Source: an uncultured Erysipelotrichaceae bacterium
GTDB taxonomy: Bacteria > Bacillota_I > Bacilli_A > Erysipelotrichales > Erysipelotrichaceae
NCBI GenBank assembly: GCA_944325685.1
Contig: CALVBC010000029.1
Location: 1-64,000, forward strand
DNA: 64,000 bases
Direction: 5' to 3'
This document shows positions 29,240 through 54,239 of this stretch, one piece after another. Position numbers and translations under genes: made by a program. Position 1 is the first letter of the stretch. Each line of letters begins with the position of its first letter. The notes beneath the pieces are model-generated. The model was given only the letters and a program-made list of their open reading frames with translations. It searched no databases and was not told the DNA's origin.

Positions 29240-30142
29240 ATGATCGTAGGTGTCATTGATCTTGGCAGTAATACGATAAGATTATCGATCTACAGTTATG
29301 ATGAAAACAGCTTCAAGCTTCTCACCAACAAGAAGACGATGGCTGGCATCATCTCGTATATCGAAAATGGTCGTCTGAATAAGGAAGGCGAAGATAAGAT
29401 CTGTAAGGTCTTGAATTCATATCGTGAGTTATTAGAGAACTTCGATGTGCATGATGTCAGATGCTTTTCGACCGCATCGCTTCGTAATATCACCAATCGC
29501 GATGAGGTCTTAGAGAAGGTATTTAAACGCACTGGTATCAAAGTCGATGTGCTAAGTGGTCAAGAAGAGGCTGATCTTGACTTTATCGGGACAAAGCTCT
29601 TTATCGATATCGGCGATGGGATCGTCATCGATATCGGTGGTGGTAGTACTGAGCTTGTCACCTTTGAAGATGATAAGGTCATCGCTGCTGAATCGATCAA
29701 TATCGGCTCGCTTTCGATGTTCAACAAGCACACGCAAGGTCTGATCCCAACTAAGAAGGAAAGATCAGAGATCCAAGATGATGTCATTGAACATCTCGAC
29801 AAGATCAAAGATCGCTCGATCGTCGATGATAAGCACAAAGTAGCGATCGGAGTCGGTGGTACGATCAGAGCGACCTTGCGCTTGGTCAACGCTTATAAAG
29901 GCCTTGAATTCAAGGAATTCAGCACCGGTGATGTCAGGGAATTATTAGATCAGATCAAAGCCAGCGACAAAGCATCTTTGTCACGGATCTTGAAGATCTG
30001 TCCTGATCGTATCCATACCATCATACCGGGTATGACAGTCCTATATACGATCTTGCGCAAGCTCGATATCAAGATGGTCATCGTTTCGAAATACGGCGTC
30101 AGGGAGGGATACTTATACCACAATATCATCAAAGGAGAATGA
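29240..30142 (+). CDS. ppx: Exopolyphosphatase, Ppx/GppA family
   Basis: 300 residues, the short two-domain form. ASKHA-type motifs are IDLGSNTIRLSIY (phosphate 1), FSTASLRNI, IDIGGGSTELV (phosphate 2) and GVGGTIRATLRL. It removes terminal phosphates from polyphosphate or from pppGpp in the cytosol. It is followed after 3 bases by ppk, giving an operon for making and degrading polyphosphate. An AAGGGAGGG site precedes the ATG. Confidence 0.92.
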   Translation: MIVGVIDLGSNTIRLSIYSYDENSFKLLTNKKTMAGIISYIENGRLNKEGEDKICKVLNSYRELLENFDVHDVRCFSTASLRNITNRDEVLEKVFKRTGIKVDVLSGQEEADLDFIGTKLFIDIGDGIVIDIGGGSTELVTFEDDKVIAAESINIGSLSMFNKHTQGLIPTKKERSEIQDDVIEHLDKIKDRSIVDDKHKVAIGVGGTIRATLRLVNAYKGLEFKEFSTGDVRELLDQIKASDKASLSRILKICPDRIHTIIPGMTVLYTILRKLDIKMVIVSKYGVREGYLYHNIIKGE

Positions 30143-30145
30143 TTT

Positions 30146-32290
30146 ATGGCAGCATATATTTATGACACATCTTATACCCAAAACCGTGAATTATCATGGC
30201 TCAAGTTCAATGGACGTGTCTTAGAAGAAGCACAAGATGATACTAATCCGATCCTAGAGCGTTTTAAGTTCTTAGCGATCGTCACCAGCAATCTCGATGA
30301 GTTCTTTATGATCAGGGTCGGTAGTTTGACTGACCTATCTTTACTAAATCCTAAAAAGCGTGAGAACAAGCAACTTCTAACCGCCAAGGAACAACTAGAT
30401 CTCATCTATGACCGATGCAAAGACCTCGTCTTAAAAAGGGATGCTTGTTTTAAAGAGGTCGAAGAAAAGCTCAAAGAACTTGGGATAAAGCGTCTTTCAT
30501 TTAAAAAGCTCGATAAAGAACAGAAGAAGTTCATCGAAAGTTACTATGCCAATTTCGTTGAACCGATCATCAGTCCACAGATCATCGATCCCCATCATCC
30601 ATTCCCTCATTTAGAGAATAAAGCTCTATATGCGACTTGTATCTTAAAACACAAAAAGACCAAAGCCATGACTTATGGCATCGTCCAAATACCAGCTAAG
30701 CTCAAGCGGATCGTTAAGGTCATCGATGAAACGAGTGCCTATGTCTTAGCCGAAGACCTCATCTTGCATGAACTATCCAAGATCTTCAAACAATATACCA
30801 TCGTCGATAAAGCGCTGATATCCGTCACTAGGAATGCCGATATCGCTTTTGATCATATCGAAGTAGCTGATGAAGACTTCTCTGATTCGATGAAGAAGCT
30901 ATTAAAAAAGCGCAAAAGACTGATGCCTGTCCGTTTAGAAGTAGAAGGCAATACTTCTGATAAACTAGTCGATTATCTTTTAGAACATCTAGATCTCACT
31001 AAAGAGAAGGTCTTCTATAGTGACATGCCTTTAGACTTATCCTATGTCTATTCGATCAAGGATGTATTTAAAGATGTGATCAAAGATAGTTATTACTATA
31101 AGCCTTTTACACCACAGATATCTAAGATGGTCGATCCTGATCGTTCGATGATCGAACAGGTCCTAAAGAAGGATATCTTATTATTCTATCCCTATGAAGC
31201 GATGGATCCATATCTAAAACTGATCAAAGAGGTGGCTTATGACCCGCATGTTTTATCGATCAAGATCACGATATATCGACTAGCTAAAAAAGCTAAGCTC
31301 ATCAAATATTTGTGTGAAGCCGCGGAAAACGGTAAAGAAGTCACGGTCTTGATGGAATTAAGAGCGCGTTTTGATGAAGAAAACAATATCAACTGGGCGG
31401 ATACTTTAGAGGAATCAGGCGTTAGAGTCATGTATGGTTTTGAAAACTACAAGGTCCACTCTAAAGTAACTTCGATCACCAGGCTATATGAAGGCAATCT
31501 TCAGGTCATATCACAGATCGGTACTGGTAACTACAATGAGAATACCGCCAAGATGTATACCGATATATCGCTTATCACCGCTGATGAAAACATCGGTCGT
31601 GATACCATCAAGTTCTTCAACAATATGGCTGTTGGTGAATTAAATGGCACCTATGATGAGCTATGGAATTCACCATTCACCTTAAAGAAGAAGGTCCTAG
31701 AAGCCATTGATCTTGAGATCATGCGCAAGCAGATGGGGGAAAAAGCAGCGATCACGATGAAGCTCAATTCGATCACCGATCGCGAAGTCATCGATCGTCT
31801 AGCTGTTGCCTCAACAGCTGGAGTAAAGGTGCGTCTCATCGTCAGAGGGATCACCTGTATCTTGCCAGGAATTGAAGGAAAGACCGAGAATATCGAGATC
31901 AGTTCGATCGTCGGTCGTTTCTTAGAGCATGCCCGCATCTATATGTTTGGTGAAGGAGATGAAGCCAAGATCTATATCAGCAGTGCTGATATGATGACCA
32001 GGAATACGGAAAAACGCGTTGAGATCGCAGTACTGATCAAAAAGGACTACCTTAAAAAAGCGATCTTAGAATATTTAGATCTACAATTTAGAGATAATGT
32101 CAAAGCGCGTTTAGTCGATAAAAATGGTGATCTATATAAAAAGGATATCAAAGAAGGGGAAGAGCTTATCGATTCACAAGCTTTGATGATGCAAGAAGCG
32201 ATAGCTAATGCCCCAAAGAAAAAGGAAGTCAAAAAGAATGAAAATCCTGGTTTACTAAAGGCGATCAAGGATTTCTTTAGTCGAAAATGA
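30146..32290 (+). CDS. ppk: Polyphosphate kinase 1
   Basis: 714 residues, standard for PPK1. N-terminal YTQNRELSWLKFNGRVLEEA; the phospho-acceptor His is in YKVHSKVTS (about 437) and the second conserved His in FLEHARIYMFGEG (about 593), close to the E. coli positions. RLAKKAKLI and GTGNYNENTA are further motifs. The enzyme reversibly transfers the gamma phosphate of ATP onto a polyphosphate chain. The C-terminal 40 residues are a Lys-rich extension. It is an operon with ppx. A VTC-domain protein, a second possible polyphosphate polymerase, is encoded at 51453. Confidence 0.96.
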   Translation: MAAYIYDTSYTQNRELSWLKFNGRVLEEAQDDTNPILERFKFLAIVTSNLDEFFMIRVGSLTDLSLLNPKKRENKQLLTAKEQLDLIYDRCKDLVLKRDACFKEVEEKLKELGIKRLSFKKLDKEQKKFIESYYANFVEPIISPQIIDPHHPFPHLENKALYATCILKHKKTKAMTYGIVQIPAKLKRIVKVIDETSAYVLAEDLILHELSKIFKQYTIVDKALISVTRNADIAFDHIEVADEDFSDSMKKLLKKRKRLMPVRLEVEGNTSDKLVDYLLEHLDLTKEKVFYSDMPLDLSYVYSIKDVFKDVIKDSYYYKPFTPQISKMVDPDRSMIEQVLKKDILLFYPYEAMDPYLKLIKEVAYDPHVLSIKITIYRLAKKAKLIKYLCEAAENGKEVTVLMELRARFDEENNINWADTLEESGVRVMYGFENYKVHSKVTSITRLYEGNLQVISQIGTGNYNENTAKMYTDISLITADENIGRDTIKFFNNMAVGELNGTYDELWNSPFTLKKKVLEAIDLEIMRKQMGEKAAITMKLNSITDREVIDRLAVASTAGVKVRLIVRGITCILPGIEGKTENIEISSIVGRFLEHARIYMFGEGDEAKIYISSADMMTRNTEKRVEIAVLIKKDYLKKAILEYLDLQFRDNVKARLVDKNGDLYKKDIKEGEELIDSQALMMQEAIANAPKKKEVKKNENPGLLKAIKDFFSRK

Positions 32291-43968: not shown

Positions 43969-45225
43969 ATGATGTATTGGACTATTTTAGAAAAGGATGA
44001 ATACCAAGCTTTTGTGAGCGCACATGACCAAGCTGATTTTTTGAATTCGACCTTAGCTGGTGATAAATTCAAGCTCGATGGATGTAATGTCCACTATGTC
44101 GGGATCAAAGATGATGATAGGATCATCGCTGCCGCAATGATCGCTGGTTATAAGGTCAAATACTTTGGCTATTATTACTATGCGCCACGCGGTTTTGTGA
44201 TGGACTACAAGGATCAAGAAGTGGTCAAGATGATGACAGAAAAGACCAAGGCTTATCTCAAAAAACATCATGGTCTATACCTTAAGATCAATCCTAATGT
44301 TGAATATCAAGATCATGATAAAGATGGTAATGTGATCGGCAGTTTCAAAAACGATGATATCTTAAAGATATTAAAAGACTATGGTTATATCCATAAAGGC
44401 CTTACTAAAGGTTATGACCTCCAAGAACAGTGTCGTTGGGTATCGATCATCGATCTAAAGGAAAAGACAGAAGATGAAGTATTTAAAAACTTCGCCAGTC
44501 AAACGCGCAATGACATCAAGACGGCTGATAAATACGTGGTCAAAGTAAGGGAACTCAAGAAGGATGAATTAAGTATCCTCTATGATATGGAAGAGCGTGC
44601 TAGTGAGTATCATCACTTCAAAGCGCGTAGTTTGGCTTATTTTGAAGAGGTGTTCGATGCGTATGGTGATCACATCAAAGCCTTATATGCTTATCTTGAT
44701 ATCGAAGAGTATCATAAGCGCTTATTAGAAGAAAAAGCGAAAGAAGAAGCTAAGATGCTATCTTTACAAGATGACCTCATCAAGACACCAAACTCAGCCA
44801 AGAAACAACGCCTTTTAAAGGCGACTAAGGAATACTATGACGCCTTAGTCAAAAAGATCGCTAACTTCGATGACCTAAAGAAGGAATTTGGCAAAGAGTT
44901 ACCTTTAGCCAGTGCGATGTTTATGAAGTATGGTAAAGAGGTGACATACTTATTCAGTGGTTCAGAACATAAATATCGGGTATATCGTGGTTCATATGCG
45001 ATCCAATGGCATATGATCAAAGAGGCGATAGCGGAAGGCTATGAGCGCTACAATATGTATGGTATCAGTGGTAATTTCAATAAGGATAAAGATGGCTATG
45101 GTGTCTTTGACTTCAAGCGTGGTTTTGATGCCAAGGTGGTTGAGTTAATTGGCGATTTTATCCTAGCGATCGATCCAGTTAGATTTTATATCTATCAAAA
45201 GATCAAAGCGATCAAAGATCGTTAA
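43969..45225 (+). CDS. FemX/MurM-type peptidoglycan aminoacyltransferase
   Basis: 418 residues. Two GNAT-like lobes with a Lys/Glu-rich coiled coil between (about 235-305), as in FemA/FemX/MurM. Motifs are YYYYAPRGFVMDY, LYLKINPNVEYQDHD, SQTRNDIKTADKY, EERASEYHHFKARS and MYGISGNFNKDKDGYGVFDFKRGF. It transfers an amino acid from aminoacyl-tRNA to lipid II to build the interpeptide bridge on the inner membrane face. The type of amino acid is not readable. Start ATG 43969; a second ATG follows at once. Confidence 0.92.
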   Translation: MMYWTILEKDEYQAFVSAHDQADFLNSTLAGDKFKLDGCNVHYVGIKDDDRIIAAAMIAGYKVKYFGYYYYAPRGFVMDYKDQEVVKMMTEKTKAYLKKHHGLYLKINPNVEYQDHDKDGNVIGSFKNDDILKILKDYGYIHKGLTKGYDLQEQCRWVSIIDLKEKTEDEVFKNFASQTRNDIKTADKYVVKVRELKKDELSILYDMEERASEYHHFKARSLAYFEEVFDAYGDHIKALYAYLDIEEYHKRLLEEKAKEEAKMLSLQDDLIKTPNSAKKQRLLKATKEYYDALVKKIANFDDLKKEFGKELPLASAMFMKYGKEVTYLFSGSEHKYRVYRGSYAIQWHMIKEAIAEGYERYNMYGISGNFNKDKDGYGVFDFKRGFDAKVVELIGDFILAIDPVRFYIYQKIKAIKDR

Positions 45226-48862: not shown

Positions 48863-48891
48863 GACCCTACTTTCTAGATAAGCCTTGCGTA
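48863..48891 (+). promoter_or_regulatory. Probable SigI-type promoter of sigI
   Basis: GACCCT (48863-48868), 19 bases, CGTA (48888-48891), 23 bases before the sigI start. The same elements with the same spacing lie before the lipoprotein gene (50511-50539). Known SigI promoters have an ACCCC-like -35 and a CGAA-like -10, so these fit the type. Confidence 0.62.
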
Positions 48892-48914
48892 TCCTATATT
48901 TGGAGGAATAAGAC

Positions 48915-49625
48915 TTGGAAGAGCGCCAATTTACCAAAGACCTTAAAAAGGCTAAAACGGATATCGATGTCGCGGATGAGCTTATACGTAAGTATATGCC
49001 TTTTATCAAGGCGGAAACAGCTAAATACCTTGGTCATTATGCAAGTGAAAGCGATGATGAAGTCAGTATCGCGATGATCGCTTTCCATGAAGCGATATTG
49101 AATTATGACAGTGATAAAGGTAATTTCATGCATTATGCTTCAATGCTTATAAGAAGTAGGCTCATCGATCATGACCGTAAAGAAGTCAGGCATAAAGCTA
49201 ATATCTCCTTAGATGAAGATGGTGATGATAATGATCCTTTGATCAATACCATCGCTGATCCTAGTGATAAGGTGGATACTAATATGCGCCTTGAAGCGAC
49301 TAAAGAAGAGATCGCTGAATTAGCTAAGGTCTTAAATGATTTTGGTGTATCTTTTAAAGATCTAAGTGACCATTCTCCCAAACAAGAAAGGACGATGGAT
49401 ATGATCAAGAAGGTGATACAAAGGGCAAAAGCGGATACGACGATCCTAGATGAGCTTCTAGAGACAAAGAAACTACCACTTAAAAGACTGGTTAATGATG
49501 GTGGTGAGCGTAAGACCATCGAAAGACATCGCAAGTATGTGTTAGGGATGTTGGTGATACTGACCAATGGCTATGAGATCATCAGAGGTCACTTGTGGCA
49601 TGTCTTAAAGGGGGAAGCTGTATGA
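48915..49625 (+). CDS. sigI: RNA polymerase sigma factor SigI
   Basis: 236 residues from a TTG with GGAGG 8 bases upstream. The sigma-70 region 2 is at about 20-90 (YMPFIKAETAKYLGHYASES, DDEVSIAMIAFHEAI, GNFMHYASMLIRSRLIDHDR), and the SigI-specific C-terminal domain at about 125-236 (LAKVLNDFGVSFKDLSDHSP, KRLVNDGGERKTIERHRKYV, LGMLVILTNGYEIIRGHL). SigI responds to heat or to extracellular polysaccharide in other species, being held by RsgI. Its stop overlaps the rsgI start as ATGA. Confidence 0.93.
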   Translation: MEERQFTKDLKKAKTDIDVADELIRKYMPFIKAETAKYLGHYASESDDEVSIAMIAFHEAILNYDSDKGNFMHYASMLIRSRLIDHDRKEVRHKANISLDEDGDDNDPLINTIADPSDKVDTNMRLEATKEEIAELAKVLNDFGVSFKDLSDHSPKQERTMDMIKKVIQRAKADTTILDELLETKKLPLKRLVNDGGERKTIERHRKYVLGMLVILTNGYEIIRGHLWHVLKGEAV

Positions 49626-50512
49626 AATATCTCGTATTAGAAGTCCATACCCTTTACTGCATCGTTCTAGCTGAAGATGGCTCATATCTTAAGGTCTACA
49701 ATAAGGGCTATGAAGTCGGAAGCTTTATAAGCGATATCGAGATCGTAAAAGAAGCTAGTGAAAAACCAAGATCTTTCAAAAGAGCTATCTATCCGATATT
49801 AGCCCTAGCCAGTGTCTTTATCATCACCTTTGGTATCTATATGTTTGATGCGAGTAGGATATATGGATCGATCTATCTTGATATCAATCCAAGCGTAAGG
49901 ATCGATGCCAGTCGCAATGATACCGTCATAAATATCGATGCCCTAAACGATGATGCGGATGATCTATTAGAAGGTTATGTATATAAAGGCAAAGATATCG
50001 ATAGTGTCGTCGATGAACTTGTCGATATCGCGATCGCTAAAGGTTATCTATATGCCGGATCAGATATCACTTTCACCTTTGATAGTGATGATGACACCTG
50101 GAAGATGACTCATCGTACTAATCTCGATGATAAGATCAACTACCTCAAGGAAGAGTTACAGGTCACGATCATCATCGATGATCAAGAAGATGTCGAATAT
50201 ATCATCCCAGAAGTCGATATCAAGCCAAGCGAAGAAAGTGAGACGACACCGGATGATACATATGTCGATACCGACTATGGTGTCGATGATGATGTGACTG
50301 ATCATGGTAAAGATGATACTGACTATGGTCCTAATAACGATGGTGTTACCGATTATGATGACACCGACTACGGCCCGAATAACGATGGCGTCACTGACTA
50401 CAGCAGTGATATAGATGATGGATATAGTAGTAGCTCTAACTATGAGCCGGTAGATAGTCAAAGCAATTATCAAAACAGTAATTACGAAAATTCATCAAAT
50501 TATGATGGTTGA
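49622..50512 (+). CDS. rsgI: RsgI-type membrane anti-sigma factor with Asp/Asn repeats
   Basis: 296 residues from ATG 49622; earlier frame starts lie inside sigI. An N-terminal cytosolic domain (about 1-50) of the RsgI_N type (LVLEVHTLYCIVLAEDGSYL) would bind SigI. One membrane helix is at about 60-80 (AIYPILALASVFIITFGIYM). Outside is a beta-domain (about 84-185) with YLDINPSVRIDASRNDTVIN, as in other RsgI proteins. The tail (about 205-296) has three 15-residue units of the type DTDYGPNNDGVTDY and ends in Ser/Asn/Tyr repeats. A carbohydrate-binding module, usual in cellulolytic species, is absent. Confidence 0.88.
   Translation: MKYLVLEVHTLYCIVLAEDGSYLKVYNKGYEVGSFISDIEIVKEASEKPRSFKRAIYPILALASVFIITFGIYMFDASRIYGSIYLDINPSVRIDASRNDTVINIDALNDDADDLLEGYVYKGKDIDSVVDELVDIAIAKGYLYAGSDITFTFDSDDDTWKMTHRTNLDDKINYLKEELQVTIIIDDQEDVEYIIPEVDIKPSEESETTPDDTYVDTDYGVDDDVTDHGKDDTDYGPNNDGVTDYDDTDYGPNNDGVTDYSSDIDDGYSSSSNYEPVDSQSNYQNSNYENSSNYDG
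50310..50382 (+). repeat. 73-base exact direct repeat, copy in rsgI
   Basis: These 73 bases are identical to 51210-51282 in the next gene, including synonymous positions. They code for part of two DTDYGPNNDGVTDY units. Confidence 0.9.
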
Positions 50513-50539
50513 CCCCGATATTGAAAAAGGCGGTCCGTA
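50511..50539 (+). promoter_or_regulatory. Probable SigI-type promoter of lipoprotein operon
   Basis: GACCCC (50511-50516), 19 bases, CGTA (50536-50539). The GACCCC overlaps the rsgI stop codon; the lipoprotein start is 39 bases downstream of CGTA. Spacing is identical to the sigI promoter. Confidence 0.62.
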
Positions 50540-50578
50540 ATCTATAAGCGTAAAGGCAAAAAGCCACAGGAGGAATTT

Positions 50579-51475
50579 ATGAAAAAACGTACGAAATTAT
50601 TCGCAAGTGTCGTGACTTTAGTCTTAGCACTTACCGTATTAGTCGGGTGCACGACAAATGAAGTCGCACACCTACCAAGCACAGCGCCACTCAACGATGG
50701 TGGTACCCTTACACTAAGCGTCAACCCAGAGATCGCGATCGACTATGATGAAAGTGGTCTAGTTGAAGATGTTAGAGGTTTGAATAGTGATGGTGTGAAC
50801 TTGATCACTGATAAAACACCATTCATCGGTAAAGAGACAAGAGTTGTCGTCAAGGATATCTTAGGTCTTATCGGTGAAGCTGGTTACTTCGTTGAAGAGG
50901 TGGAAGGTGAAAGAAAGACCGTCACGATCGAGATCGAAAAGGGCTCATCGATCCCTTATGACAGCTTCATCGACGATGTCGTAAGTGATGTCAAGATGAC
51001 AGTTGAAGATAATCATTGGTACAATCCGATCGCCGTTAATGGGACGACTGATTATGGCATCACCGATTATGTCGACACCGACTATGGACCAGGAAGCGAT
51101 GGGATCACTGACTATGTCGATACCGATTACGGACCAAATAATGACGGTGTAACTGATTACTATGATACCGACTATGGTGTCGGCAATGATGGCATCACCG
51201 ATTATGGCCAAGATGATACTGACTATGGTCCTAATAACGATGGTGTTACCGATTATGATGACACCGACTACGGCCCGAATAATGATGGTATAACGGATTA
51301 TAACGATACTGACTACGGTCCTAATAATGACGGTGTAACTGATTATAACGATACTGACTACGGACCAAACAACGATGGTGTTACCGACTATAGCGGCAAT
51401 TCAAATTACGGTAACAGTAATTACGGTTCTTCAAATTACAGTTCCAGCAATTATGGAAGCAGTGACTACGATTAA
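50579..51475 (+). CDS. Lipoprotein with RsgI-like outer domain and seven 15-residue repeats
   Basis: 298 residues, AGGAGG before the ATG. Signal peptide with lipobox LVGC (about residue 24). The domain at about 43-155 (GTLTLSVNPEIAIDYDESGL and a following VRGLNSDGVNL, IGEAGYFVEEV) matches the outer beta-domain of RsgI. Residues about 165-271 are seven units of DTDYGPNNDGVTDY type, and the end is Asn/Tyr/Ser-rich. The acidic D-x-D-x-G-x-N-N-D-G-x-x-D spacing resembles calcium-binding thrombospondin type-3 repeats. It could compete with or report to RsgI. Function is inferred only. Confidence 0.8.
   Translation: MKKRTKLFASVVTLVLALTVLVGCTTNEVAHLPSTAPLNDGGTLTLSVNPEIAIDYDESGLVEDVRGLNSDGVNLITDKTPFIGKETRVVVKDILGLIGEAGYFVEEVEGERKTVTIEIEKGSSIPYDSFIDDVVSDVKMTVEDNHWYNPIAVNGTTDYGITDYVDTDYGPGSDGITDYVDTDYGPNNDGVTDYYDTDYGVGNDGITDYGQDDTDYGPNNDGVTDYDDTDYGPNNDGITDYNDTDYGPNNDGVTDYNDTDYGPNNDGVTDYSGNSNYGNSNYGSSNYSSSNYGSSDYD
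51071..51391 (+). repeat. Seven tandem 45-base coding repeats
   Basis: The 45-base unit encodes x-DTDYGPNNDGVTDY; one unit is preceded by two extra residues (GQ). Units differ mostly at third codon positions and at Val/Ile. Three further units lie in rsgI at about 50265-50400. Confidence 0.9.
51210..51282 (+). repeat. 73-base exact direct repeat, copy in lipoprotein gene
   Basis: Identical to 50310-50382 in rsgI; the sequences diverge right at both ends. A recent gene conversion or duplication is the simplest reading. Confidence 0.9.
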
Positions 51476-52133
51476 GATACCTAAAAGACATGAAATAAAG
51501 CACCAGATCAGCTCTCTTGATGACCTGGTGCTTCAAAGGCGTATCAGTAAGGCCTTAAAACACGATGATCATAATGATGGCATCTACGATGTGACCAGTC
51601 TCTACTTTGATTCACTAGATGATGATGCCTTAAAAGAGAAGATCGATGGCCATAAGAAAAGAGCGAAGTATCGGCTTCGCTATTATGAGGATGATACAAG
51701 CTATATCAAGTTAGAGAAGAAATACAAGGATAAAGACCTATCAGGGAAAGTATCGACGCTTATCACTTATGAAGAAGTCAAGATGATCTTGGCTGGGGAA
51801 TATGCCTTTTTATTAGATGGTGACCCTTTAAAGATCGAATTATATACTAAGCTCAAAGCCGGTTTTAGGCCTAAAAGCTTAGTCCGCTATCAAAGAGAAG
51901 CCTTTATCTACCCTTATGGCAATATCCGGATCACCTTTGACCGCAATATCAAGATATCAAATGCTTATACGTCTTTTTTAGATCCTGATCATCATTATAT
52001 GCAGCTGATGTCAGATACGATCTTAGAGGTCAAATACGATAATTATCTACCAGATATCGTCAGGATGCTGGTGAATATGGATACAAGGCATAATGCTTAT
52101 TCCAAATATGCGCAAAGCAGAAGGTTTTATTAG
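51453..52133 (+). CDS. VTC-domain protein (polyphosphate polymerase-like)
   Basis: 226 residues from ATG 51453, inside the end of the lipoprotein gene (23-base overlap); a GTG at 51462 is another start. The tunnel-fold VTC domain is evident: KRHEIKHQISSLDDLVLQRR, VTSLYFDSLDDDALKEKIDG, RAKYRLRYYEDDTSYIKLEK (the basic Arg/Lys cluster for polyphosphate and nucleotide), VRYQREAFIY, and TILEVKYDNYLPDIV with the metal Glu. Bacterial VTC proteins are often next to DUF4956 and CotH. Whether it makes polyphosphate or hydrolyses triphosphates is unknown. Confidence 0.88.
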   Translation: MEAVTTIKIPKRHEIKHQISSLDDLVLQRRISKALKHDDHNDGIYDVTSLYFDSLDDDALKEKIDGHKKRAKYRLRYYEDDTSYIKLEKKYKDKDLSGKVSTLITYEEVKMILAGEYAFLLDGDPLKIELYTKLKAGFRPKSLVRYQREAFIYPYGNIRITFDRNIKISNAYTSFLDPDHHYMQLMSDTILEVKYDNYLPDIVRMLVNMDTRHNAYSKYAQSRRFY

Positions 52134-52141
52134 GAGGAAAG

Positions 52142-52813
52142 ATGACATTTCAAGATATCTTTAGATCATCATTTATCGAAAATCTCACTAGTATCTCAAT
52201 ACTTGATATGGTGATCGCCATGTCTTTAGCTTTCTTATTAGGTCTATTTATCTTTTTTATCTATAAGAAGACCTGTATGAGTGTGATGTATTCAGCGAGC
52301 TTTGGCTTATCCTTGATCGGTTTAGCCCTGATCACGACGATGTTGATAATGACGGTCGTCTCTAATGTCGTCCTCTCTTTAGGTATGGTCGGTGCTTTAT
52401 CCATCGTCCGCTTTCGTACCGCGATCAAAGAGCCATTAGATATCGTCTTTCTCTTTTGGGCGATCGCGATCGGGATCGTCTTAGCCGCTGGTCTTATCCC
52501 TTTGGCTGTCTTTGGCAGTTTATTCATCGGTCTTGTGCTCATCATCTTAAAAGACCAAAAGCACATCGATCGTCCTTTTATCTTGGTCTTACATCTAAGT
52601 GACTTGGATAAGGAAAAAGAGGTATTAGACTATATCAAAGCTAGTACTAAAAGATCACTACTTAAGACAAAGTCCATCGACAAAGGCATCGTCGAATTAG
52701 ATCTTGAAGTGCGTTTAGATAAAGAGGATACGTCATTTATCGATACTTTAGAGAGCTTTGAGTATGTGACACATGTCGCTTTAGTCGCTTATAATGGCGA
52801 TTATCTAGGCTAG
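52142..52813 (+). CDS. DUF4956 membrane protein
   Basis: 223 residues with AGGAGG before the ATG, 8 bases after the VTC gene. Four membrane helices (about 20-42, 50-78, 82-92, 102-140) hold MVGALSIVRFRTAIKEPLDI, the DUF4956 signature. The cytosolic tail (about 145-223) has a ferredoxin-like/ACT-like pattern. The family occurs with VTC-domain proteins and may form a membrane complex with them. Confidence 0.9.
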   Translation: MTFQDIFRSSFIENLTSISILDMVIAMSLAFLLGLFIFFIYKKTCMSVMYSASFGLSLIGLALITTMLIMTVVSNVVLSLGMVGALSIVRFRTAIKEPLDIVFLFWAIAIGIVLAAGLIPLAVFGSLFIGLVLIILKDQKHIDRPFILVLHLSDLDKEKEVLDYIKASTKRSLLKTKSIDKGIVELDLEVRLDKEDTSFIDTLESFEYVTHVALVAYNGDYLG

Positions 52814-52814
52814 T

Positions 52815-54239
52815 ATGCTCAAAAAGAAGTGGATCGATAAAGCCTGTATCATCGCTATCATCATCGCGATCTTAGTCACTTCCCTCTTGTTTAGACATGA
52901 TAAGATCGGTATCAAAAGCGCTATAAGAGAGCCTTTATATGCTTCTAAGCTTTTTGATGATAGCTATGTCCATCATATCGATATCGAAGTCGATGATATC
53001 GGTATTATCCTTAAAAATGGTGAAGAGACGTATACTAAGGCTTCAGTCACGATCGATGATGAAAGGACAAACAACGTCGGTTTTCGGATCAAAGGCAATA
53101 ATTCCCGTCGTTTGACCAAGGAATATGATCTCATCCGTTATAGCTTCAAGATCGAATTTGATCACTATGAAAATAACAGTTACTATGGTTTAGATAAGTT
53201 ATCCCTTGATGCATCATTTCAAGATAATACCTATCTCAAGACCTATATGACCTATCATATGTTTGATCATCTTGGTGTACCAACACCCCTAGTAAGCTAT
53301 GTCTGGCTTACGATAAATGGAGAAGAGTTTGGCTTATATCTTGCGATCGAAGAGATGGAAGAGGCTTTTTTAAGGCGTCATTTTGGTAATGACTATGGTG
53401 CTTTGTATAAGCCAGACTATAAGTCATTAAATGATGATAATACCGATGTCCATCTAGGCTATATCGATGATGATATCTCTAGTTATCCTAATATCTTTGA
53501 AAATGCGAAGGTCAAGGTGACTAAAAGCGATAAAAAACGCTTGATCGCTTCTTTAAAAAGCCTAAATGAAGGCGACCTTACTAAGGTCGATATCGATGAA
53601 GTATTGGCTTATTTTGTCGTCTCGGTCTTCGTGATGAATTGGGATAGTTATATCGGTTATACTGGTCATAACTATTACCTATATGAAAAAGATGGCATCT
53701 TGTCGATGCTTCCATGGGACTATAATCTCGCTTATGGCACTTATGCCTTAGGGATGAGTGATCCGATAAAAGATCCTAATATCATCATCAACTATCCGAT
53801 CGATACCCCATGTATTGGGGAAGTGATGTTAGAAAGGCCGATGTATCATGAAGTGATGAAGGAATATATAAATGAATACCATGAACAGTTTGACACCTTT
53901 ATCAAAGGTTACTTTGATAGTGGCTTATTTGATGTCACTTATACAAAGGTCACAAATATGATCAAAGAATATGTCGAAAAAGATCCTAGTGCTTTTTGTA
54001 GCTACAAGGATCATGAGATAGCGCTTGAGACCTTTAAGGACATGATCGATCTTAGAGTCGAAAGTATCAAAGGGCAATTAGATGGCAATTATCCTAGCAA
54101 GCTAATCGACTTTGACTACTTTGGTATCGATGCATCACATATCGATATCGCTACTTTAGGTGATTTTGATGATCTTGAAAAAGCTAAAGAGCGTCAGGAT
54201 ATCTTATTGAAAAACTCATTGCCTTTTAAGATCGAATAG
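52815..54239 (+). CDS. CotH-family kinase-like protein, membrane-anchored
   Basis: 474 residues. One N-terminal membrane helix (about 9-27), then an outer CotH domain: FRIKGNNSRRL (about 94), YYGLDKLSLDASFQDNTYLK, LYLAIEEMEEAFLRRHFG, MNWDSYIGYTGHNYYLYEKD and MLPWDYNLAYG. CotH proteins are atypical kinases that phosphorylate spore-coat or surface proteins. The neighbouring repeat lipoprotein is a possible substrate (many Ser/Thr/Tyr/Asp), which is inference. It starts 1 base after the DUF4956 stop. Its last 46 bases overlap the converging kinase gene. Confidence 0.9.
   Translation: MLKKKWIDKACIIAIIIAILVTSLLFRHDKIGIKSAIREPLYASKLFDDSYVHHIDIEVDDIGIILKNGEETYTKASVTIDDERTNNVGFRIKGNNSRRLTKEYDLIRYSFKIEFDHYENNSYYGLDKLSLDASFQDNTYLKTYMTYHMFDHLGVPTPLVSYVWLTINGEEFGLYLAIEEMEEAFLRRHFGNDYGALYKPDYKSLNDDNTDVHLGYIDDDISSYPNIFENAKVKVTKSDKKRLIASLKSLNEGDLTKVDIDEVLAYFVVSVFVMNWDSYIGYTGHNYYLYEKDGILSMLPWDYNLAYGTYALGMSDPIKDPNIIINYPIDTPCIGEVMLERPMYHEVMKEYINEYHEQFDTFIKGYFDSGLFDVTYTKVTNMIKEYVEKDPSAFCSYKDHEIALETFKDMIDLRVESIKGQLDGNYPSKLIDFDYFGIDASHIDIATLGDFDDLEKAKERQDILLKNSLPFKIE

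Follow-up and report, generated by a model that had tools for sequence, protein, structure and literature searches.

The DNA analyzed here, a window of 64,000 nucleotides (nt; positions 1-64,000 of the forward strand of contig CALVBC010000029.1) from the 1.36-Mb genome of an uncultured Erysipelotrichaceae bacterium, contains at 48915-54239 (+) a cassette of six open reading frames in the order sigI, rsgI, lipoprotein, VTC, DUF4956, and cotH, separated by short gaps or overlaps (Table 1). Computational comparison shows a gene set that is conserved across genera and carries two SigI-type promoters, in which the lipoprotein has the SEAL fold of RsgI, and RsgI and the lipoprotein share a Ser/Thr-x-Tyr ([ST]xY) tail motif that is tied to CotH. 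We interpret the cassette as a SigI-controlled envelope module in which the CotH kinase would act on the [ST]xY tails, with feedback through RsgI; in our judgment this interpretation stands evenly balanced between acceptance and doubt. The initial annotation of this locus had listed six tightly spaced genes, and all six were recovered at the same coordinates with agreeing domain assignments (Pfam and NCBIfam profiles; all scores clear of thresholds except the equivalog cut-off for SigI and the gathering score for RsgI_N); its term "fused" was wrong, as the genes lie side by side, with overlaps between some of them, and are not fused.

Among 60 relatives, six of the eight genomes from the same genus have a SigI homolog at approximately 50% identity or above, as do genomes of two other genera, and the cassette accompanies each of these homologs as far as the contigs extend; within the family and the order, several genera show the same succession of genes. 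When named genomes were scanned with the CotH alignment, at least 588 relatives came up; in the best 80 of these, VTC was found in 72 cases and DUF4956 in 76, most gaps being contig ends. Where at least 5.5 kb upstream of CotH was available, all six genes were present in 44 of 46 named loci from Clostridia and Bacilli. The carriers are dozens of gut Firmicutes, including culturable commensals such as Traorella massiliensis and Blautia sp. An81. At the first of the two incomplete loci, L186, a frame slip in the tail has joined lipoprotein and VTC into a read-through, and a reading of this locus as a lipoprotein-less cassette was rejected for that reason; at the second, VTC and DUF4956 are absent and VTC genes are located elsewhere in the genome. 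Pairwise divergences of the six proteins are correlated (Mantel r 0.53-0.87, permuted maximum 0.22), in a statistic that ignores kinship. The recurrence of the gene order in several genera and in the long named loci is more than chance; linkage in this strain only, which the initial annotation had named as refuting its proposal when it suggested a neighborhood comparison, is clearly not what is found. Related arrangements were also seen: genome G022 (L029, 10212-15037, -) encodes VTC, DUF4956, a metallo-beta-lactamase-fold lipoprotein, a second DUF4956, SigI, and an RsgI without Asn-Pro, and contig C4 of genome G017 (L105, 1-3019) carries a second, partial module copy consisting of the lipoprotein tail end, VTC, DUF4956, and CotH.

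The motif ACCCC-N~20-CGTA-nn-CTATA is found at two sites of the locus, upstream of sigI (P1) and upstream of the lipoprotein gene (P2), and agrees with the published SigI consensus, which reads ACCCCC--AA-15N-CGAA in Bacillales and contains CGWA in Clostridium thermocellum (PMC4711584, PMC10575876). P1 sits 17 nt upstream of the sigI start codon and is kept in relatives, so that sigI has its own promoter, as SigI systems do; both promoters recur across genera. At the named loci, the tight form of the pattern was present upstream of sigI in 41 of 54 cases and upstream of the lipoprotein gene in 47 of 53, whereas first-order Markov resampling gave it in 5 of 5400 and 10 of 5300 cases, respectively; the tight pattern is relied on because the loose one had a control rate of 21%. 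In G017 and at locus L234, sigI-rsgI diverges from the module, and the motif precedes both units. The control of the VTC-DUF4956-CotH part by SigI, as proposed initially, is supported by this arrangement and by the cross-genus second promoter. Exact matches across 37 genomes numbered eight, all at the cassette locus, and those in the window genome were P1 and P2 only; one-mismatch matches were tRNA-like or as frequent as those to the control pattern. A wide SigI regulon is thus not supported, a result that covers exact and one-mismatch sites and not degenerate ones; with all exact matches at the cassette, the predicted SigI regulon probably includes little else.

The sigI gene starts with TTG, preceded by GGAGG, and its product matches TIGR02895 over residues 15-225 with 172 bits, just below the equivalog cut-off of 185 bits. 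Sigma70_r2 is the only Pfam sigma domain found, so that sigma region 4 is absent as in other SigI proteins, and the window genome has no other close SigI match. The adjacent RsgI combines RsgI_N (1e-4; 22.5 bits, cut-off 25), a transmembrane (TM) helix, and an outer SEAL/RsgI_M domain with the Asn-Pro pair. The genome also encodes an RseP-type peptidase homolog; autocleavage of RsgI, its cleavage by RseP, and the release of SigI are predictions from these sequences.

The folded part of the lipoprotein is a second copy of the self-cleaving SEAL domain of RsgI. Its profile matches the Bacillus subtilis RsgI structure 8t9n (6e-9), its predicted structure (predicted local distance difference test, pLDDT, 84) has the RsgI SEAL domains 8t9n and 8hdj as top Foldseek matches, and Asn-Pro at the cleavage site is invariant in 53 homologs. 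The initial annotation saw in this lipoprotein a second sensor of SigI, which it probably is not; it has no cytoplasmic part, hence no cytoplasmic anti-sigma domain, and therefore cannot itself hold SigI. As a SigI target with a tail resembling a kinase substrate, it looks like an output. Elsewhere in the window, the gene at 43969-45225 (+) was rejected as a SEAL protein; its match to the SEAL profile was weak, and its LKINPNVE was judged a chance occurrence in a FemAB-type-reading protein.

The CotH domain aligns with structure 5jd9 at NxD (here NFD) and PWD, and both candidate catalytic Asp residues, D277 and D302, are invariant in the subfamily; the N-terminal membrane anchor should place the kinase domain outside the cell. 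The VTC profile matches the yeast Vtc4 structure 3g3q (3e-17), and the Vtc4 tunnel residues are retained, with R9, E11, K13, K69, R71, R73, E85, K87, K89, K96, R145, R156, E189, K191, and K215 invariant. DUF4956 has predicted membrane helices and a C-terminal ferredoxin-like domain (AlphaFold2 model, pLDDT 76); a fold search with its soluble part gave generic ferredoxin-like matches only. Polyphosphate synthesis or translocation by VTC, and export via DUF4956, are putative and speculative. A second polyphosphate system lies 17 kb from the VTC cassette, with a PPX-like gene (29240-30142, +) followed by PPK1 (30146-32290, +); as PPK1 and PPX are encoded within the window, VTC as the sole polyphosphate synthase was rejected. 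The genome lacks Spo0A, and a spore-coat function of the cassette in this organism was rejected on that ground.

Table 1. Promoters, genes, and tail-coding region of the cassette, with the matches or motifs that define them.
Feature	Position	Strand	Evidence
SigI-type promoter P1, before sigI	48864..48898	+	exact motif ACCC-N20-CGTA-nn-CTATA
sigI, RNA polymerase sigma-I factor	48915..49625	+	TIGR02895 1.5e-50; Sigma70_r2 9.2e-9
rsgI, membrane anti-sigma-I factor	49622..50512	+	RsgI_M 1.6e-21; RsgI_N, one TM helix, SEAL/RsgI_M with DINPS, acidic [ST]xY tail
SigI-type promoter P2, before lipoprotein-VTC-DUF4956-CotH unit	50512..50546	+	exact motif; overlaps rsgI stop codon
SEAL-domain lipoprotein with acidic [ST]xY repeat tail	50579..51475	+	lipobox LVGC; RsgI_M 3.5e-10; SEAL fold (profile, Foldseek)
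Lipoprotein tail, repeat-coding	51045..51472	+	repeat search
VTC-domain protein, polyphosphate-polymerase-like	51462..52133	+	PF09359 8e-30; GTG start; overlaps lipoprotein gene end
DUF4956 membrane protein	52142..52813	+	PF16316 4e-11
CotH-family kinase, N-terminal membrane anchor	52815..54239	+	PF08757 2.3e-51; candidate catalytic D277, D302

The C-terminal parts of RsgI and the lipoprotein are long [ST]xY repeat tails of low complexity and acidic character (median net charge -35 and -48), which are likely to be disordered. Among the named loci, Ser or Thr occupies position -2 for 338 of 400 Tyr in RsgI tails (84.5%, vs. 19% in shuffled sequences) and for 924 of 1197 in lipoprotein tails (77% vs. 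15%); position X of [DGQN][ST][DNGA]X[DGEN] holds Tyr 639 times and Phe or His 3 times. The lipoproteins of these loci carry 6 motifs or more each (median 16), and two or more are present in 51 of 54 RsgI proteins; in the window, 9 of 11 Tyr in the RsgI tail and 21 of 22 in the lipoprotein tail follow the rule. The RsgI_M proteins of relatives that are not linked to CotH have 0-3 motifs, i.e., they lack tails. The Ser/Thr preference covaries between the two tails of the same genome (rho 0.79, n=45, kinship ignored), and a stretch of 115 nt in the lipoprotein gene (51186-51300) is 88% identical to one in rsgI (50286-50400), a sign of a recent duplication, or of gene conversion, involving the two tails. 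Two tail queries of the tested genomes for repeats on other secreted proteins returned the cassette only; such low-complexity queries have limited reach, and the second one missed the tails of G038 and G043.

In an order-wide survey of the CotH subfamily (E <1e-170), VTC, DUF4956, and a tailed lipoprotein were present at all 20 fetched loci, one of these tails being known from a fragment at a contig end only; at more divergent CotH loci, SEAL or tail proteins were found in none of 12. The sigma genes at the 20 loci were SigI in 14 cases and extracytoplasmic function (ECF) sigma factors in 3; 2 loci (L301 and L302) keep the tailed lipoprotein with CotH and have no adjacent sigma gene, and 1 was cut by a contig end. 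At the three ECF loci the anti-sigma factor is an RsgI_M protein without a tail, and G038 and G043 are two more ECF cases. Loci L101, L110, L283, L289, and L292, from another family of the order, carry an ECF sigma factor of 171-173 amino acids with a tail-less RsgI_M anti-sigma factor; here the sigma class is swapped over a conserved lipoprotein/VTC/DUF4956/CotH module. As far as gene content indicates, the tail is linked to the CotH subfamily whatever the sigma factor.

According to the proposed mechanism, RsgI would keep SigI at the membrane, its outer SEAL domain would self-cleave at Asn-Pro, and a signal would lead to RseP-type proteolysis that frees SigI; the freed SigI would fire P1, for its own gene, and P2, for the lipoprotein-VTC-DUF4956-CotH unit. 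CotH would act as an outward-facing atypical Ser/Thr kinase with the acidic [ST]xY tails of the lipoprotein, as the main output, and of RsgI as its substrates. Since both catalytic Asp residues are kept, the anchor should place the kinase outside, and B. subtilis CotH phosphorylates disordered Ser-rich repeats of the neighbor-encoded CotB and CotG (PMC7821199), the tails are the best candidate substrates for CotH; the surface phosphorylation suggested initially gains support from the tails and from this analogy. If the RsgI tail is also a substrate, the anti-sigma factor would carry a readout of the kinase under its control, and phosphorylation of the tail may feed back to SigI. With DUF4956 as a partner in the membrane, VTC would link phosphate into a phosphoanhydride polymer at the inner membrane face, and this polymer may serve CotH outside the cell, where ATP is scarce; a phosphate supply by VTC-DUF4956 to an outer kinase would explain the enzyme trio, although a donor role for polyphosphate is speculative. 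A fully closed loop, in which VTC-DUF4956 exports polyphosphate as the donor, CotH phosphorylates the lipoprotein and RsgI tails, and the activity of SigI is set by how the RsgI tail is phosphorylated, appears unlikely to us.

As a caveat, several points weigh against the kinase-substrate interpretation. The kinase, expression, and cleavage roles are predicted from sequence; the tails are acidic, whereas the known CotH substrates are rich in Ser, Lys, and Arg; shared operon history could be the source of the co-occurrence of tail and CotH, and the tail-covariation and Mantel statistics do not take phylogeny into account. The ECF versions have an anti-sigma factor without a tail, and tail feedback is therefore not universal. 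PPK1 in the genome and two loci without VTC and DUF4956 beside CotH (L201 and L233, with VTC elsewhere in their genomes) do not favor a strict need for VTC.

Alternatively, the Asp-rich repeats could be Ca2+- or wall-binding modules comparable to thrombospondin type 3 or RTX repeats, with RsgI and the lipoprotein sensing divalent ions or the wall and CotH acting elsewhere, for example on an exopolysaccharide system. The strongly negative charge of the tails, the resemblance of DxDYGPNNDGxTDY to Asp/Asn/Gly-rich Ca2+-binding repeats, and the location of VTC-DUF4956-CotH next to Pel genes in other Firmicutes (PMC7112168) are consistent with this possibility; yet the tails have no Pfam match to any Ca2+-binding repeat, unlinked RsgI_M proteins have no tails, and many lineages have lost the GPNNDG spacer (SNYD, SDYD, SGYD, and SPYD tails) while keeping Ser/Thr-x-Tyr, a motif that Ca2+ binding does not need. 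On balance, this explanation is possible but doubtful. That the lipoprotein is a decoy or feedback regulator, its soluble-side SEAL domain and tail copy competing for the RsgI ligand and damping SigI with no kinase role, would suit its status as a SigI target and the SEAL domain and tail type that it shares with RsgI of the same genome, partly through recent sequence exchange; we consider it quite unlikely, as the tailed lipoprotein stays with CotH under an ECF sigma factor with a tail-less anti-sigma factor, and also where no sigma gene is adjacent. A purely historical neighborhood, with a mobile accessory VTC-DUF4956-CotH set that came to lie behind sigI-rsgI and is expressed independently, would agree with the many VTC-DUF4956 pairs of relatives that have no sigma gene nearby; it is made highly improbable by the conserved second SigI-type promoter, which is retained in divergent layouts, by the tails shared between anti-sigma factor and module lipoprotein, and by another family, in which the module has independently been combined with an ECF sigma factor and an anti-sigma factor of the RsgI_M type.

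SigI/RsgI systems, SEAL autocleavage, CotH kinases, and VTC-DUF4956-CotH sets are already known. The SigI-RsgI pair of B. subtilis and the SigI/RsgI set of C. thermocellum share with the cassette a SigI without region 4, an RsgI with RsgI_N, TM helix, and SEAL Asn-Pro, and an autoregulated ACCCC/CGWA promoter (PMC4711584, PMC10575876, PMC12203970). Those systems serve heat or wall stress or cellulosome genes, and their RsgI proteins carry carbohydrate-binding module or glycoside hydrolase domains; in contrast, the cassette is dedicated to CotH/VTC/DUF4956, its RsgI has an outer tail of [ST]xY repeats, and it includes a second SEAL protein, a lipoprotein. A CotH domain is also present in cseP, a SigI6 target of C. 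thermocellum, but as part of the cellulosome (PMC4711584). A closely similar gene neighborhood, NELoc-2 of Clostridium perfringens (CP4_0458-0465), contains SigI, a cell-wall hypothetical protein later listed as an anti-sigma-domain protein, VTC, a DUF4956-like protein ("tubulin"), and CotH (PMC2879425, PMC11677781). Compared by published gene lists, NELoc-2 differs in having two VTC/DUF4956 pairs split by a resolvase, followed by a glycosyltransferase, and no separate lipoprotein, and it was not treated there as a regulated unit. The linkage that the initial annotation called undescribed is thus partly visible in these lists. The B. subtilis cotB/cotH/cotG cluster likewise places a kinase gene beside genes for Ser-rich repeat proteins, their cassette counterparts being candidates; it belongs to the spore coat under sporulation control, has Lys/Arg-rich repeats, and lacks VTC, DUF4956, and SigI. 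The accessory Pel genes CotH-PPP-DUF4956-DUF4832 of streptococci and clostridia share the trio of CotH, a polyphosphate-polymerase-like protein, and DUF4956 (PMC7112168), but are tied to Pel polysaccharide synthesis and have no link to SigI/RsgI or a tailed lipoprotein. A search of largely open-access literature turned up no paper that describes joint regulation of the cassette, its lipoprotein with the second SEAL domain, its additional SigI promoter, or the [ST]xY tails; none printed the tail repeat, and none tied a CotH kinase mechanistically to polyphosphate.

Bacterial VTC-DUF4956-CotH sets are widespread, and the cassette supplies them with a regulator, a predicted minimal regulon, and a candidate substrate with a fixed Ser/Thr-x-Tyr motif; the role of CotH, a distant relative of the Fam20C secretory kinases (PMC7821199), and of VTC outside spores thereby becomes reducible to a simple kinase assay. 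If the interpretation as a SigI-controlled kinase module is true, a SigI/RsgI pathway would be dedicated to an extracytoplasmic kinase, its anti-sigma factor would bear the same tail as the substrate, and the question of the phosphate source for such a kinase would be raised; if the closed loop holds as well, the anti-sigma factor would have a direct extracellular readout of its own regulon.

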